From a virus: a stretch of DNA of 22,650 nucleotides. The position numbers and the translations under genes are program-made. Positions 6,338 through 21,038 of this stretch are shown piece after piece; position 1 is the first letter of the stretch; every line of letters starts with the position of its first letter. The notes beneath the pieces are model-generated. The model was given only the letters and a program-made list of their open reading frames with translations, made no database searches and had not been told where the DNA came from. The DNA lies in the IMG/VR virus record IMGVR_UViG_3300011445_000071, positions 1 to 22,650 of that record, one strand, 5' to 3'.

Positions 6338-6972
6338 AGATCCTCCTCGGCGAGGGTGGGCACGGTGAACGTCTCTTCAGACAAGGTGGAGCTGACGCCC
6401 GTCTCGCCGGTGAACGACGGCGTGACGAAGGTCTCGCTGCCCAGTTCGAGGCAGAAGGCGGCGTTGATGAGCGTAGTCGGGTCGACGTTCCACAGCCCTT
6501 GGCCGGCAGGCGCAGGCTTCTTTCGCCGCAGGAGATCGGGGTAGCGAGGCCGCCAGCCGCGTGTGATCGGCACGTCCAACACGCTACTAATTTCGAAGCC
6601 GTTGTCCGGCTGCTCCGCGAGGCGGCGAGCAGGAAACCTGTCCGGGTAGCGTCCTCGCCAGTAGAGATCACTCTGCGGGCGCAGCGGCATGATGGGCGTG
6701 ACCTGCCGGTGTGCGGCCTTGAGCGTCGTGCGTGACGGCACCTGTGCCGGAAAGGTCGGCATCGGCGGCATTTCCGTCGGCAGCGGCGGGTTCACGATCG
6801 GGCTGAGATTGTGAATAAAGTGCCGCTGCGACGCCGTGCGAATGCTCGTCTTGCCGTAGACGCGATCGGGAAAATGCGGCAGCCAGCGCACGTCCCCTTC
6901 TTCGAGGAGGAGGTTGTCTCCGTTCTCCAAGAGCAGCGCGTCACCAGTTTCGAGAAGGAGGTTGCTCGGCAT
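6331..6972 (-). CDS. Repeat protein: LLLE repeats plus WxxxYPD repeats (213 aa)
   Basis: The ATG at 6972 follows the upstream stop after four bases. The N-terminus (residues 4-27) is three tandem octapeptides of the form xLLLExGD. After it come copies of a W-x3-[YF]-P-D unit with W at residues 30, 105 and 140 (WLPHFPD, WRGRYPD, WRPRYPD), plus a degenerate copy near residue 74 (FPAQVPSRTTLKAAHRQ). The C-terminal 35 residues contain a two-fold repeat (ETFVTPSFTGE and ETFTVPTLAEE) and end in Cys. The same W/YPD unit occurs three times in the gene at 8148-8642. Its place among tail-appendage genes suggests a virion or appendage-assembly protein. I know no biochemical function for it. Confidence 0.8.
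   Translation of the reverse strand: MPSNLLLETGDALLLENGDNLLLEEGDVRWLPHFPDRVYGKTSIRTASQRHFIHNLSPIVNPPLPTEMPPMPTFPAQVPSRTTLKAAHRQVTPIMPLRPQSDLYWRGRYPDRFPARRLAEQPDNGFEISSVLDVPITRGWRPRYPDLLRRKKPAPAGQGLWNVDPTTLINAAFCLELGSETFVTPSFTGETGVSSTLSEETFTVPTLAEEDLC
6493..6900 (-). repeat. Wxxx[YF]PD repeat region, copies in second gene
   Basis: Three full copies (W30, W105 and W140 of the 213-residue protein) and one degenerate copy near residue 74 share the core W-x3-[YF]-P-D, usually followed by R or L and a hydrophobic residue. Spacing is irregular here (75 and 35 residues). The family also occurs in the gene at 8148-8642 with regular spacing. Confidence 0.75.
6892..6963 (-). repeat. Three tandem octapeptide repeats, xLLLExGD
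   Basis: Residues 4-27 of the 213-residue protein read NLLLETGD, ALLLENGD and NLLLEEGD. Each unit is 24 bases and the codons differ between copies, so this is a protein-level repeat rather than a fresh DNA duplication. Runs of LLLExGD at the N-terminus are a recurring feature of phage structural proteins. Confidence 0.85.
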
Positions 6973-14140: not shown

Positions 14141-15085
14141 TCAGTAGTAGTCGTACACCGTCGCGTCGGTAGAGCGTAACAGATTCGTGGTCTCGGTGAT
14201 CACGCCGTACCCGAGCGCAAAGTTGACCGTCACGTAGTCTTCGGGAAACTGGTTGTCGTCCGCGAGGCTCACGCGCTGCAGCTGCAGATCCCAGTCGCGC
14301 TGCAGGCGGTCGGAGAGCGCCAGGTTGAAATAGGGGTTGGGAAGGTCTTTCGTCCCCGGGAACTTCGACGCGGCGAGGAGCGACCCCAGCTTGAAGAGAT
14401 CGGCGCGATTGCTGAAGACGCCTGGGAACACCGAGGTGTCCGCGAGGCGCTCGGCTTGACGATAGTACAGGTACGGGAAGTGCCGCTCTGACGTCGGCGT
14501 CGGCCAAAACTCATAGCGCGTTTGGCCGAGGGTCGCGGTGGCGGGGGAGACATCGCGTGCGACGAGGTAGCGCGGCCCTGTGTCGGAGTTGGTGCGCGCC
14601 GGGTCCGCCGTGCCGATTTGATCCTGATTGAACCAGTACGGCAACAAGCGCTGGTTGTACCGATCGACGATGATCAGAAAGCGGTGAAAGTCGGCTGGGG
14701 TCGTGAAGTAGGCGTCGAGAATGGACGCGGTTTCGGCCCCACCGGTCTCGGCGTAGTTGCGGTCGAGGACGATCGTCGAGGCGTCGGTGACGGAGATGAT
14801 GGTGTAGATCGGGTAGCCGGTGACACGGATCTGCCGCCCGGCGTCGGTGGCGACAAAGAGCGCTGCGGAAGTGACGGTGGGTGAGCCTTGAGTGAAGGTG
14901 ACGGTGAGCGAACGGCTCGCCAAGGTGTCGATCGAGGCTTCCTTCCGCAGAAAGCCCCAGCCGCCACCCCGGTACTCGCACGCTTGGGTATAAGCGTCTT
15001 GTACCCAGTCGCGCACGAGCAGCGGCGGGACGCCAGGAAAGGCGTTGCGTGCCCGCCGCCAGGCTGCTTCAAAGGTCTCGGCCAC
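14141..15085 (-). CDS. Head-completion/neck-like virion protein (314 aa)
   Basis: The start is GTG at 15085 with AGGAG about nine bases upstream. The N-terminal 55 residues are helical (ETFEAAWRRARNAFPGVPPL then VRDWVQDAYTQACEY). A beta domain follows at about 58-130 with LTVTFTQGSPTVTSAA, RQIRVTG, YTIISVTDASTIVLDRNY. The C-terminal half has ADFHRFLIIVDRYNQRLLPY, FPYLYYRQAERL, and a helical stretch (NPYFNLALSDRLQRDWDLQL). A helix-beta-helix layout of about 300 residues in the head-to-tail part of the operon suits a connector or neck protein that docks below the portal. Alternative: minor capsid protein. Head-to-tail role is inferred. Confidence 0.75.
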   Translation of the reverse strand: MAETFEAAWRRARNAFPGVPPLLVRDWVQDAYTQACEYRGGGWGFLRKEASIDTLASRSLTVTFTQGSPTVTSAALFVATDAGRQIRVTGYPIYTIISVTDASTIVLDRNYAETGGAETASILDAYFTTPADFHRFLIIVDRYNQRLLPYWFNQDQIGTADPARTNSDTGPRYLVARDVSPATATLGQTRYEFWPTPTSERHFPYLYYRQAERLADTSVFPGVFSNRADLFKLGSLLAASKFPGTKDLPNPYFNLALSDRLQRDWDLQLQRVSLADDNQFPEDYVTVNFALGYGVITETTNLLRSTDATVYDYY

Positions 15086-16054: not shown

Positions 16055-17125
16055 CTACGACGTGAACCCGTGGAGCACGCGCGACAGGCGCAGTGCCTTG
16101 ACGATCGGCCCGTTCCCTCCGAAGAGAATCTGGCCGGACACCTGGTTGTCTTCCCGCGCGCCCTTGAAGCCGGTGAAGCCAAACGCGAACTTCGCCGACT
16201 GGGCGATGTAGAGCCGGATGTACGCGTCGTCGCCGGTCGGCCCGAAGTTCAGCCACCAGAAGGTCTCGCCCGCCGCGTTGTAGTTGCCGAGGTCGGCATC
16301 GTTGACGCCGTCCTGCCCCGGGCAGTAGTCGGACATCATCACGGTGGCGCGGTCGAACTTGATCCCAGGCCACGCGATTTCCGGCTGGGTCGTGTCGATC
16401 ACCTGATGGGGCAGGAAGTTCTCCGAGATGAACCCCATGCCACGCCGTGTGGTCAGACCCGTGTCGGGGGCCTGGTTGCCGATGCAGCAGGACAGGTACG
16501 AATGGCGGAGGACCCGGTAGGACATCGAGCCGAGATACGGCGCGGCGCCGATGTTCGGCGAGGCGACGAGACCGGTCGGTGGCGTCAGCGCGGGTGCCAC
16601 GTCTGCGCGCGTCTGTCCACCGTAGGAGGGGAAGAGGTTCCCCGCCCATGAGGCGTTCGTGCCGTCGTTCAGCGCTTCTTCGAGGCCGTTCAATTCGAGT
16701 GAGCGGTTGTCGCCGGCGAGGTTCTGCCCATGATGGAACGCGGCGATTTCGAGGATCGCCGACATGGTGAGGGCCGCCTGTGCCATGTCGGTGCGAATGA
16801 CCGAGAAGGCCGCGTTCGGCCCCGCCATCTCGACTTCGAGGTCTTCGAGGAACTCGGTCACGTTGACCTGGTAGTACTTGGGGCCGAAGAGCATGCCCGC
16901 ACGGGTCTGCCGGCGGGTCACGTCGAAGGAGGCGCCTTTCGCGTAGGCCCCGCCCTTCATCGGCTTGAACATGAAGTTTTCTTGAATCTGGGGACCGATC
17001 CACTTGCGGGTGAAGCGGCGACGGCACATCGCGATCAGGGGACCGGATTTGAAATAGCCGTCGACGACACCCGGTTGGATGTCCTTGGTGACAGTGGTGT
17101 TGACATCATCGAGCAGCAGGGCCAC
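16055..17125 (-). CDS. Major capsid protein (356 aa)
   Basis: The start is GTG at 17125, fixed by TAGGAGGT at 17133-17140, the strongest ribosome site near any start here, as expected for the most abundant virion protein. The protein begins ALLLDDVNTTVTKDIQPGVV then DGYFKSGPLIAMCRRRF. It has MFKPMKGGAYAKGASFDVTR, KYYQVNVTEFLEDLEVEMAG, a helical AALTMSAILEIAAFHHGQN near residues 125-145, and an aromatic/Gly-rich C-terminal half (ETFWWLNFGPTGDDAYIRLY, FAFGFTGFKGAREDNQ). Size, position just after the scaffold gene and the helix-rich N-terminus followed by a beta-rich half are those of an HK97-fold capsid protein. No N-terminal protease-processed delta domain is apparent; a separate scaffold gene replaces it. 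Confidence 0.88.
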   Translation of the reverse strand: MALLLDDVNTTVTKDIQPGVVDGYFKSGPLIAMCRRRFTRKWIGPQIQENFMFKPMKGGAYAKGASFDVTRRQTRAGMLFGPKYYQVNVTEFLEDLEVEMAGPNAAFSVIRTDMAQAALTMSAILEIAAFHHGQNLAGDNRSLELNGLEEALNDGTNASWAGNLFPSYGGQTRADVAPALTPPTGLVASPNIGAAPYLGSMSYRVLRHSYLSCCIGNQAPDTGLTTRRGMGFISENFLPHQVIDTTQPEIAWPGIKFDRATVMMSDYCPGQDGVNDADLGNYNAAGETFWWLNFGPTGDDAYIRLYIAQSAKFAFGFTGFKGAREDNQVSGQILFGGNGPIVKALRLSRVLHGFTS

Positions 17126-18378: not shown

Positions 18379-18564
18379 CTATCGGCGTCCTTTCGCGGTG
18401 AACGATCGCCAGCCGGATTTGATGCGTTCGAAATTGGAGGCTTTCTTGTCCACGAGTTTGTGGCCGACCTCGACGGAGCGCCGGCGGGCTTCGAGGGCGT
18501 GCGTGGCGATGCGCGGATCGACCTTGCCCGATTCGTTTGGCAGGGTGATGTCGCCGCGGGCCAT
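18379..18564 (-). CDS. Small basic protein, unknown (61 aa)
   Basis: The ATG at 18564 overlaps the TGA of the 27-residue gene by one base (TGATG). The product is rich in Lys and Arg with a central helix (RIATHALEARRRSVEVGHKL, then KKASNFERIKSGWRSF). The net charge is strongly positive, so it may bind nucleic acid or the acidic scaffold. No motif identifies it. Close overlap with both neighbours supports expression by coupled translation. Confidence 0.75.
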   Translation of the reverse strand: MARGDITLPNESGKVDPRIATHALEARRRSVEVGHKLVDKKASNFERIKSGWRSFTAKGRR

Positions 18565-18647
18565 CAGCAGGCGCGTCCGCGGCCAAACTTCTTACTGCCC
18601 GTCATCTTCTTGCCGCCCTTCACGGGCTTGCCTTTGCTGAATGCCAT
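18564..18647 (-). CDS. 27-residue Lys/Gly-rich microprotein
   Basis: The ATG at 18647 is preceded by GGAAAGG about nine bases upstream, and the stop overlaps the next ATG. The peptide reads MAFSKGKPVKGGKKMTGSKK then FGRGRAC. It has 11 Lys or Arg in 27 residues, many Gly, no acidic residue and a terminal Cys. It is the first gene after the 184-base gap and lies just behind the long hairpin. The good ribosome site and coupling argue that it is a gene and not chance. Basic Gly-rich peptides of this size could bind RNA, DNA or capsid surfaces. It might also serve as a leader that couples translation of the next gene. Confidence 0.6.
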   Translation of the reverse strand: MAFSKGKPVKGGKKMTGSKKFGRGRAC

Positions 18648-18662
18648 GGTGGTGAGCCTTTC

Positions 18663-18778
18663 CGTGTCAGACGAGGGGTTGGGGTTCGAGACGAGGCGAA
18701 CAGAGCAGCCGTCCCCCGACAAACTGCGCGGATCGCCTCGTCACACCTCAACCAGACGAGCAAGGATGCGCTGACACG
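18663..18778 (-). promoter_or_regulatory. Long structured RNA element upstream of the head gene cluster
   Basis: The gap 18648-18830 holds no convincing gene. On the minus strand three nested stems can form. Stem 1 is CGTGTCAG (18771-18778) with CTGACACG (18663-18670). Stem 2 is GGTTGAGGT (18745-18753) with ACCCCAACC (18677-18685), 8 of 9 pairs. Stem 3 is GACGAGGCGA (18733-18742) with TCGCCTCGTC (18690-18699), 10 perfect pairs. The apical 33 bases can add GCAG/CTGC and GTC-GGGG-GAC. The 3' end abuts GGAAAGG, the ribosome site of the 27-residue gene. It lacks a T-run, so it is not a standard terminator. It may be an RNase III processing site, an mRNA stabiliser or a translation regulator; these are inferences. 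Confidence 0.6.
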
Positions 18779-18830
18779 ACTCATGTTGTCAAGGGGGAAG
18801 GCGACAAAAGTCTGCCCGAGGACGGATTTG

Positions 18831-21038
18831 TTACTTGTCGGAGGTGGTCGTGGTGGTGCGCGTGCCGCCCTTGCCGTCGGACTTGGACTCGCCCTTGGGC
18901 GGGGCGTCGTTGCTGGCTTTGCGGCCTTGGGCGTTCGCCATCATGCCGAGGCCGAGCATTTGCTGCGCCTGGAGGCGCTCGGTGATCGTCGTGGGTGAGC
19001 GGAGTTCGAGGATCTGCCCCGACATCGGATCGAGCAGCATGACGCGGCCGTCAGGGAGCTGTACGGGACCGGGACCGGGCGGCATCGGGGAGCCAGCACC
19101 GGACGGACTCTCAGGACTCGCGGACATGGGAGGCATCCCACCCATCATCGCCTGCTGCTGCAGCTGGATCTGCATCATCGCCTGCTGCAGGATGAATTGC
19201 TGCTCCTCGGGCGTGACGGGCTTGAGCGGGGGCAGCGGGATCGCCGGCGGCGCACCGACGTTCGGGGTTTCGAAGACCTCGTGGTAACTCCAGAAGTCGA
19301 GGTAGCCCATCGTCGCTTGCTGCTGCGCGACCATCTTCCGCTCGGTCGAGTTCATCGCGAGGATGGAGTTCGGCGCCACCACGAAGACGAACTGTTTGTG
19401 GAAGGCTTGCGCGCGTTGATCCGCGGTGGTCAGGTTGGCGTCGAGTTCGGGGATGTAGCCCTCCTGCCCTGGCAACAACGCAGGTACCAAGGTGGCAGGG
19501 TCGGCATCCATGTCTTCGAGGACGACGGCGGCTTCCCCGAGGATCATCCGGCGTTTGGTCTGCGACAGGAACTGGAAGTAGTTGACCTTCGTCATCTCCG
19601 AGAGGTCGCGCATGAAGGATTCAACCTGCCGCGCTTCCTGACGGATTTCTGGAGTGAGCGCTTCGTAGTACTTCTGGATCGTGTCGGCCGAGGGCATCTG
19701 CCGCAGTTGCAAGAGCGCGGCGAGATTGGCCGTGCCCGAGAGATCGTTGTGCTTCGTGGTGAGCTTGTCCCAGAGTTCGGAGGCCATCGCGAGGATCTGC
19801 GGGTTCGGGCCGTCCAGCTTTTCGTACGCTTCGCCAAAGCCCGGTTGCACTTTGATGCGCTTGCCCGGGCGCTGCGGGTCGAGCGAGCGCATCGTGGCTT
19901 CTGACACCGCGTTGCGGTTCCACTTGACGTCGTAGTTCAGCCACTGCCGGATGCCGAGCCGAATGTCTTGAACCGTGTCGTTGATCGCGTCCTGCACGGG
20001 CAGGAGATCGTTGAACAGCGGGATGCCGAGGAACTGCCAGGGCACCGACCACAGGCGCATGCGACACAGGGGGAAGAGGCCGTGCCAGTAGGTATTGGGG
20101 CCGTCGAAGAGAATCATGTCGTCGGTCGAGACGATGAGGCGTCCGCGGGGGTACAAGGCCGCTTCGGGTGCGACGCTGTACGCCCAGTTCGTGCCAGGCA
20201 TGCCCATCGGAATCGGCTTGCCCGTGAGGTTGCGCGTGCGGTCTTTGACGTAGGTGCGGTACAGGGCAATGTTGCCCGAGCGCGGTTGGCGAGAGTGGAC
20301 CGAGTCCTGCCCGAGGCGGTCGAGCGGGTCGGCTGGGGTCAGGAGGTGCGACATCACCGAGCGGAAGCGCCCCTTCACCTTATCGATCACCGAATCAATC
20401 GAGGGCCGGAAGAGTTGCGCCTTCCCGGGGTACATCGCTTTGAGGGCGTTGACCGTGTGCTCTTCGCGCAGGGTCAGCCCTTCCCAGAGCTGGGGCGAGC
20501 GCGCGTGCGAGGGGCGGAAGGGCAGCGTGTCGCGCGGGTCACGTGGCGAGAAGCTGTGCGCACCACCAAAGGGCGCGTGCGGATCCCAGTCGACGACGAA
20601 GTCGCCGGTGCCGGCCGCGAGCGCGATCTTCACGCAGTCGCCGAGATCGACGTCCGCGAGGGTCGTGACCCACTCGGCGAGGGCGTACTGATTCAGGAGA
20701 TCGGCTTGGCGCTGATAGGCGGTGTTGAGCGTCTTCCAGCCGAACAACGGTTTGATGTCGGTGAGGGCGGAGACGTGCGCCTGCATCGCCTTGCGGGATT
20801 CGTTGATGACGACTTTCGGGAGGTACTTGAGCTTGCGCCGTTCGGGATCGAGTTGCTCGCCGACGACGTAGCGGAGGGCCGGTTCGATTTGGTCGTAGGA
20901 CGGGTCGGAGCGGTTGATTCTGTCGCCGTCCTCGCGGAGTTCGCGCAGCCAGCCGATGACGCGGGGGTCGCCGTACTGCAGGGATTCGGCGGAGGTGGCC
21001 GGAAGGCCCGCGAGGCCAGATGGACTAAATTCGGCCAC
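18831..21038 (-). CDS. Portal protein (735 aa)
   Basis: The start is GTG at 21038, one base after the stop of the zinc-ribbon gene. Residues 1-150 contain LKYLPKVVINESRKAMQAHV. The centre has PNTYWHGLFPLCRMRLWSVP and WQFLGIPLFNDLLPVQDAIN, the 'hG.(F/L)P...(V/Y)PW.F.G...D..P.Q..IN' pattern typical of portal proteins. It is followed by ATMRSLDPQRPGKRIKVQPG and a long helical clip/wing portion. The C-terminal 130 residues are Gln/Met/Pro-rich (FILQQAMMQIQLQQQAMMGG) with a Lys/Thr end (GGTRTTTTTSDK), probably the barrel and disordered tail. The length suits large portals of short-tailed phages (T7 about 536, P22 725). The dodecameric portal sits at one head vertex, binds terminase during packaging and adaptor proteins afterwards. 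Confidence 0.85.
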   Translation of the reverse strand: MAEFSPSGLAGLPATSAESLQYGDPRVIGWLRELREDGDRINRSDPSYDQIEPALRYVVGEQLDPERRKLKYLPKVVINESRKAMQAHVSALTDIKPLFGWKTLNTAYQRQADLLNQYALAEWVTTLADVDLGDCVKIALAAGTGDFVVDWDPHAPFGGAHSFSPRDPRDTLPFRPSHARSPQLWEGLTLREEHTVNALKAMYPGKAQLFRPSIDSVIDKVKGRFRSVMSHLLTPADPLDRLGQDSVHSRQPRSGNIALYRTYVKDRTRNLTGKPIPMGMPGTNWAYSVAPEAALYPRGRLIVSTDDMILFDGPNTYWHGLFPLCRMRLWSVPWQFLGIPLFNDLLPVQDAINDTVQDIRLGIRQWLNYDVKWNRNAVSEATMRSLDPQRPGKRIKVQPGFGEAYEKLDGPNPQILAMASELWDKLTTKHNDLSGTANLAALLQLRQMPSADTIQKYYEALTPEIRQEARQVESFMRDLSEMTKVNYFQFLSQTKRRMILGEAAVVLEDMDADPATLVPALLPGQEGYIPELDANLTTADQRAQAFHKQFVFVVAPNSILAMNSTERKMVAQQQATMGYLDFWSYHEVFETPNVGAPPAIPLPPLKPVTPEEQQFILQQAMMQIQLQQQAMMGGMPPMSASPESPSGAGSPMPPGPGPVQLPDGRVMLLDPMSGQILELRSPTTITERLQAQQMLGLGMMANAQGRKASNDAPPKGESKSDGKGGTRTTTTTSDK

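Follow-up and report, generated by a model that had tools for sequence, protein, structure and literature searches.

What is the role of a long hairpin that lies between the portal and head genes of a phage and ends at a ribosome site? This question is raised by IMGVR_UViG_3300011445_000071, a 22.65-kb virus record from a soil phage whose late genes lie on the minus strand; the whole of this stretch is referred to here as the window. The portal gene (18831..21038, minus strand; PHROG 156) lies upstream of the gap that holds the hairpin, and the gene for the major head protein (16055..17125, minus strand; PHROG 9953) lies downstream. Within the gap, the hairpin is located between the portal stop and a 27-codon gene (18564..18647, minus strand; MAFSKGKPVKGGKKMTGSKKFGRGRAC), an ORF with a Shine-Dalgarno sequence that is the first gene behind the structured region. 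The three nested stems originally predicted from the letters of the DNA are all present on the minus strand: an outer stem of 8 bp (18778-18771 with 18670-18663), a middle stem of 8 bp with one mismatch (GGUUG-GGU, 18753-18745, with ACC-CAACC, 18685-18677), which encloses the rest of the leader hairpin (18677..18753), and an inner stem of 10 bp (GACGAGGCGA, 18742-18733, with UCGCCUCGUC, 18699-18690; 18690..18742 overall). In the predicted fold, a further stem closes an apical C-GGGG-G loop at 18718-18713 (GGGG, 18717-18714). The 3' arm of the outer stem (18663..18670) adjoins the Shine-Dalgarno sequence GGAAAGG (18663-18657, minus strand), and no U-tract follows the hairpin; both features had likewise been noted at the outset.

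Folding calculations show how far this structure departs from expectation. The 116-nt hairpin (18663-18778, minus strand) has a minimum free energy of -56.3 kcal/mol, as compared with -40.6 +/- 3.6 kcal/mol for dinucleotide-shuffled controls (z -4.33; 1 of 200 as low), and an independent shuffle returned a z of -3.88, bearing out the expectation that the fold would exceed such controls. The 201-nt context that had been proposed for folding gave a weaker signal (z -2.05; 6 of 200 as low) and is only mildly special. When the whole window was scanned on both strands in 116-nt windows, 5 of 1504 reached a z of -3.5 or lower, placing the hairpin among the top few per thousand: its fold signal is unusual, but not unique. 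Two other segments, 6721-6836 and 14911-15026, have equally extreme folding energies (z -3.9 to -4.3) and fall in coding regions. Searches of Rfam at gathering and loose thresholds returned no family for the window hairpin.

To place the hairpin in context, relatives were gathered from IMG/VR by their portal and head proteins; single-protein searches yielded 9 and 60 loci, and alignment searches 80 and 78, with much overlap among them. Two Tunturiibacter phages, with 23-25% identity, come closest among named phages, and no prophage relatives appeared among 84,980 bacterial genomes. In most of these relatives, a TTGACA-N17/18-NAYNCT element follows the portal gene. Within the relatives' DNA, about 1.3 Mb in all, a strict pattern (TTGACN-N17/18-NAYNCT) matched at 30 distinct places, nearly all of them behind the portal gene on the late strand and only 2 on the opposite strand. 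On either strand of the window the strict pattern has a single match, TTGACAACATGAGTCGTGTCAGCGCATCCT, at 18792-18763 on the minus strand (TTGACA-N18-CATCCT), which comprises a predicted -35 box (TTGACA, 18787..18792) and a predicted -10 box (CATCCT, 18763..18768). The window's 18-nt spacer and CATCCT fit the set found in the group's other phages, in which CATCCT, CACCCT, CACACT and GATCCT occur. The -10 box departs widely from TATAAT, and a general sigma-70 scan did not call a promoter at 18792-18763. Recurrence of the element at one genomic position nonetheless suggests that it may act as a promoter, with transcription starting, as a guess, at about 18756.

Such a promoter would alter the boundaries of the structure. 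The 5' arm of the outer stem (18771..18778) lies inside the promoter spacer and would be absent from promoter-started RNA, so that only transcripts reading through from the portal gene can form the outer stem. The single 116-base transcript hairpin of the original prediction therefore needs revision for a promoter transcript, the bounds of which would be about 18756-18657: promoter-started RNA is predicted to carry the inner two stems only, within a 5' leader about 92 nt long. Judged from the promoter and from conservation (see below), the predicted leader of the head-gene transcript occupies 18657..18756 on the minus strand and ends with the Shine-Dalgarno sequence. Folding indicates that the middle stem also forms in promoter-started RNA, and the part that would be transcribed (18756-18670) retains a z of -4.18 against shuffles. 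The two transcripts differ in the predicted state of the ribosome site, with the Shine-Dalgarno sequence unpaired at 0.57 in promoter-started RNA versus 0.24-0.27 in read-through RNA; because it is more unpaired there, translation may be better from the promoter-started message. We also considered a switch in which two CCUCGUC copies (18696-18690 and 18676-18670) compete for GACGAGG, and rejected it as an equilibrium alternative, the distal pairing being about 17 kcal/mol worse.

These comparisons bear on a reading in which the promoter match is irrelevant and the hairpin works only in portal read-through RNA, as a processing or stabilizing element of the sort first suggested, such as an RNase III site or a 5' end protector. 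The full 116-nt fold with its outer stem has the best energy, and the lower accessibility of the Shine-Dalgarno sequence in read-through RNA would fit such a role. However, no other strict promoter match exists in the window, relatives have the promoter at the equivalent position, and the outer stem adds just 8 bp of a kind that arises easily; we regard this reading as improbable.

The hairpin itself is kept in one relative only, L002, whose portal protein is 98.7% identical to that of the window; an exact search of IMG/VR with part of the hairpin matched the L002 contig alone. Over the segment that runs from the promoter through the hairpin and takes in the Shine-Dalgarno sequence, the two phages differ at 1 of 136 positions, as compared with 51 of 587 (8.7%) in flanking coding sequence (Fisher p 0.0003), a low rate that rests on a single relative and that could also stem from recent exchange of the segment. 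The sole change, C to U at 18666, converts G-C to G-U within the outer stem and retains the pair; being the only change in the hairpin, it does not allow the fold itself to be tested. Near-identity of the segment and its position exactly behind a conserved promoter both argue against a functionless stable hairpin arising by chance in GC-rich DNA, an explanation for which the five comparably extreme windows and the modest score of the 201-nt context can be cited, and which we consider quite unlikely. Also at odds with the comparison to L002 is the idea that the leader codes for protein. A nearly leaderless ORF of 43 codons opens with TTG near 18751 (MRCDEAIRAVCRG...), about 4 nt past the predicted transcription start, and leaderless starts (within 6 nt) are common in the group; but the C-terminus of the ORF is not kept in L002, the one change present gives no pattern of synonymous substitution, and the 27-codon gene, with its good Shine-Dalgarno sequence, overlaps the frame. 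We give a coding leader almost no credence.

The 27-codon gene (18564-18647) has a homolog in L002 that has diverged from it at 17 of 84 aligned nucleotides. Its product is very short and rich in lysine and glycine; small basic genes are seen near the equivalent place in L002, L025, L063 and phage Tunturi_2. L002 also carries about 90 nt at the end of its portal gene (L002:1785-1870) that are extra relative to the window and that contain an inverted repeat (AAGACGAAAC...GTTTCGTCTT).

Comparison of 86 portal-head gap sequences, some of them near-duplicates, revealed what commonly occupies this position in the group. Behind the promoter, 26 relatives have a structured leader of 62-119 nt and then, shortly before the first head gene, a strong hairpin with a T-run, that is, an intrinsic terminator. 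These phages share 39-70% portal identity with the window, some of them only 39-50%. About 29 others are nearly leaderless, with the start codon 0-6 nt behind the predicted transcription start, as in the head-operon mRNAs predicted for L020, L034, L062 and L124. Terminator-type hairpins occur elsewhere in the same DNA at about 0.3 per kb, a rate at which chance alone would place only about 3 of them behind some 60 promoters. In the window, the intrinsic terminator with a U-tract that these 26 relatives have before the first gene is absent. As a rule, the relatives with a leader and terminator have no second TTGACA promoter close behind the terminator; with a terminator standing between promoter and head genes and usually no further TTGACA promoter, head-gene expression in these phages would need read-through. 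The gap of Tunturi_2 was rejected as a leader of this kind, since by eye its terminator precedes a promoter-like site, after which comes a small lysine-rich gene.

A promoter and a terminator that bound some 60-120 nt also have the form of a small-RNA gene, which in relatives would accord with a regulatory RNA acting in trans. The window, however, has no terminator; the relatives lack a second TTGACA promoter before the head genes and often have a start codon close behind the U-tract, such that read-through would be needed anyway; and the sequences are too variable for a common target. A trans-acting RNA is thus very unlikely.

Ten of the relatives' leaders share a common layout, which consists of CGUCCGUACUGACGCG, a hairpin that mostly bears a GGGG apical loop, CCACCGUC and the terminator. 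A covariance model built from four of these P1-P2 leaders (R1) and searched in 325 kb found five held-out leaders (E 3e-5 to 0.013), each match falling at the leader, and a second model (R2) found that of L055 (E 0.007). Across nine of the ten leaders, aligned, 11 of 16 pairs have changed on both sides with pairing kept. The covariation score is 0.66, against 0.17 +/- 0.04 for shuffled alignments and no more than 0.15 when partners are slid, in an alignment that was fitted to the model and so favors the structure. Each searched record has one copy of the family, L040 having a second, weak match beside its main one. A search for more members with a degenerate DNA pattern returned five contigs, all from this phage group; matches to a second degenerate pattern in L224 and L225 were rejected as chance occurrences in coding DNA. 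Rfam yielded no match for the leaders, the hits for L030 being weak and unrelated. The P1-P2 leaders thus share a covarying RNA structure that has no Rfam match.

The window's hairpin lies where these leaders do, in the portal-head gap and immediately after the TTGACA promoter. It also shares with them GACG..CGGGGG..CGUC, a closing helix and C-GGGG-G loop, through which its inner stem resembles their P2 hairpin; this likeness was noticed post hoc, and since these phages contain the pattern roughly once in every 100 kb, it is suggestive only. The covariance models do not join the two. Neither R1 nor R2 found a significant match at the window hairpin with filters off, R3, which models the window hairpin, found no other leader, and membership of the window hairpin in the P1-P2 family by covariance model was accordingly rejected in both directions. 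The family's conserved letters, CGUACUGACG and CCACCGUC, are likewise missing from the window. These results weigh on the view that the leader is a cis element still at work, either an antitermination RNA similar to put or an attenuator read by a protein of the phage or its host, and functionally equal to the P1-P2 leaders. Shared position, the common helix and loop, and strong conservation in L002 would all be expected of such an element; failure of the family models to recognize it, loss of the conserved letters and the lack of a terminator directly downstream on which it could act make this view doubtful.

With the covariance models missing the window hairpin, the case for descent rests on position, promoter and the portal tree. 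On that tree, the window, L002, L003 and L004 form a supported clade (100/99), which L061 and L100 join with weaker support (86/67). L004, L061 and L100 have a leader and terminator, and the gap of L003 is taken by another ORF; all members of the clade with a readable gap, other than the window and L002, are therefore of the leader-and-terminator type. The L003 gap (L003:4747-5129) holds the beginning of an ORF that reads ISIYTLCDPTTGEVRYLGLSRNP... and by eye resembles a GIY-YIG endonuclease. Over the whole tree, the leader-and-terminator state requires about 7 changes, as compared with 17 when labels are shuffled, and with midpoint rooting it reaches the deepest branches. In the simplest account, the window's lineage lost the U-tract of its terminator or swapped its leader, while the promoter and a structured leader were kept.

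The hairpin thus looks like a control leader of the head genes from which the stop signal is missing. On balance, we lean toward the explanation that it is the structured 5' leader of a head-gene transcript made from a late promoter, and that it derives from an ancestral attenuator akin to lambda PR'-tR' whose U-tract has been lost here. Under this explanation, the TTGACA-N18-CATCCT element between the portal and head genes would start the head-gene transcript. Ancestors would have had the same promoter and, between it and the first head gene, a leader RNA that folds and a strong intrinsic terminator. In ancestors and relatives alike, this layout would leave read-through or antitermination as the only way to the head genes. 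In the window's lineage, where the terminal hairpin lacks a U-tract, polymerase would enter the head genes constitutively, and the leader would persist as a stable 5' UTR hairpin beside the ribosome site, where it might affect transcription, RNA stability or translation. The control role for the capsid transcript contained in the original prediction is likely in kind: structured RNA does precede the head genes, and the fold, the conservation in L002 and the relatives' leaders all point toward such a role. A bolder proposal, which we advance only as a long shot, is that a large group of uncultivated soil phages controls the head genes through a dedicated late promoter and that the leader RNA made there, a new covarying structure, determines passage through a promoter-proximal terminator with no known Q protein, either by an RNA-based mechanism or by another factor; the window would be a natural terminator-loss variant whose leader still works.

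Lambda PR' makes a terminated leader RNA. The relatives' arrangement is similar in that their late structural genes are preceded by one promoter, about 100 nt of leader and an intrinsic terminator; it differs in that the unit lies between the portal and head genes, whereas that of lambda lies before the lysis genes, and in that the structure of the leader RNA is conserved in part of the phage group. The window itself departs further from lambda by having no terminator. Antitermination in lambda depends on Q. At PR', a promoter-proximal pause is where Q loads (PMC7171158). The Q families PF03589 and PF06530 were absent from 12 related records in searches with positive controls, the window record being too short to judge; a PF06323 search of the same 12 records was also negative, albeit without a working control.

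A second comparison is with the put RNA of HK022, which is about 70 nt long, structured, located just downstream of a promoter and ahead of terminators, and active as nascent RNA (PMC9378689). Its two-stem structure is bound to the beta' zinc-binding domain and acts without protein factors. By description only, the window's leader is similar in being a structured RNA just behind a promoter; put differs in serving early genes and in having two stem-loops with a triplex (PMC9378689), and Rfam links neither the window nor the leaders to any such family. The window's predicted fold also puts a stable hairpin close to the 5' end, with a Shine-Dalgarno sequence behind it. Stabilizing hairpins of this sort are found in the 5' UTRs of bacterial and phage mRNAs, such as the ompA leader and T4 gene 32; in contrast to these, the window's hairpin sits in a clade with an attenuator-like unit at that place.

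Should the favored explanation be right, the head-gene operon of a widespread soil phage group would be controlled at one mappable point, and the attenuated relatives would carry a new structured RNA. The three natural states of the gap, which are attenuated, leaderless, and with a structured leader but no terminator, would offer a comparison for the timing and amount of capsid protein.

Two smaller features accompany the relatives' leaders and terminators. A GTAC motif, mostly GTGTAC or GCGTAC and usually 7-9 nt past the start of the T-run, is present in 15 of the 26 leader-and-terminator phages (among them L047, L055, L064, L121 and L135), with a chance expectation of about 6% each; the motif is absent in the window. 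In many of the leader-and-terminator phages, including L004, L049, L058, L061, L064 and L069, a small gene of similar reading (RYTG..., ending near QIRLT) terminates over the -35 box.
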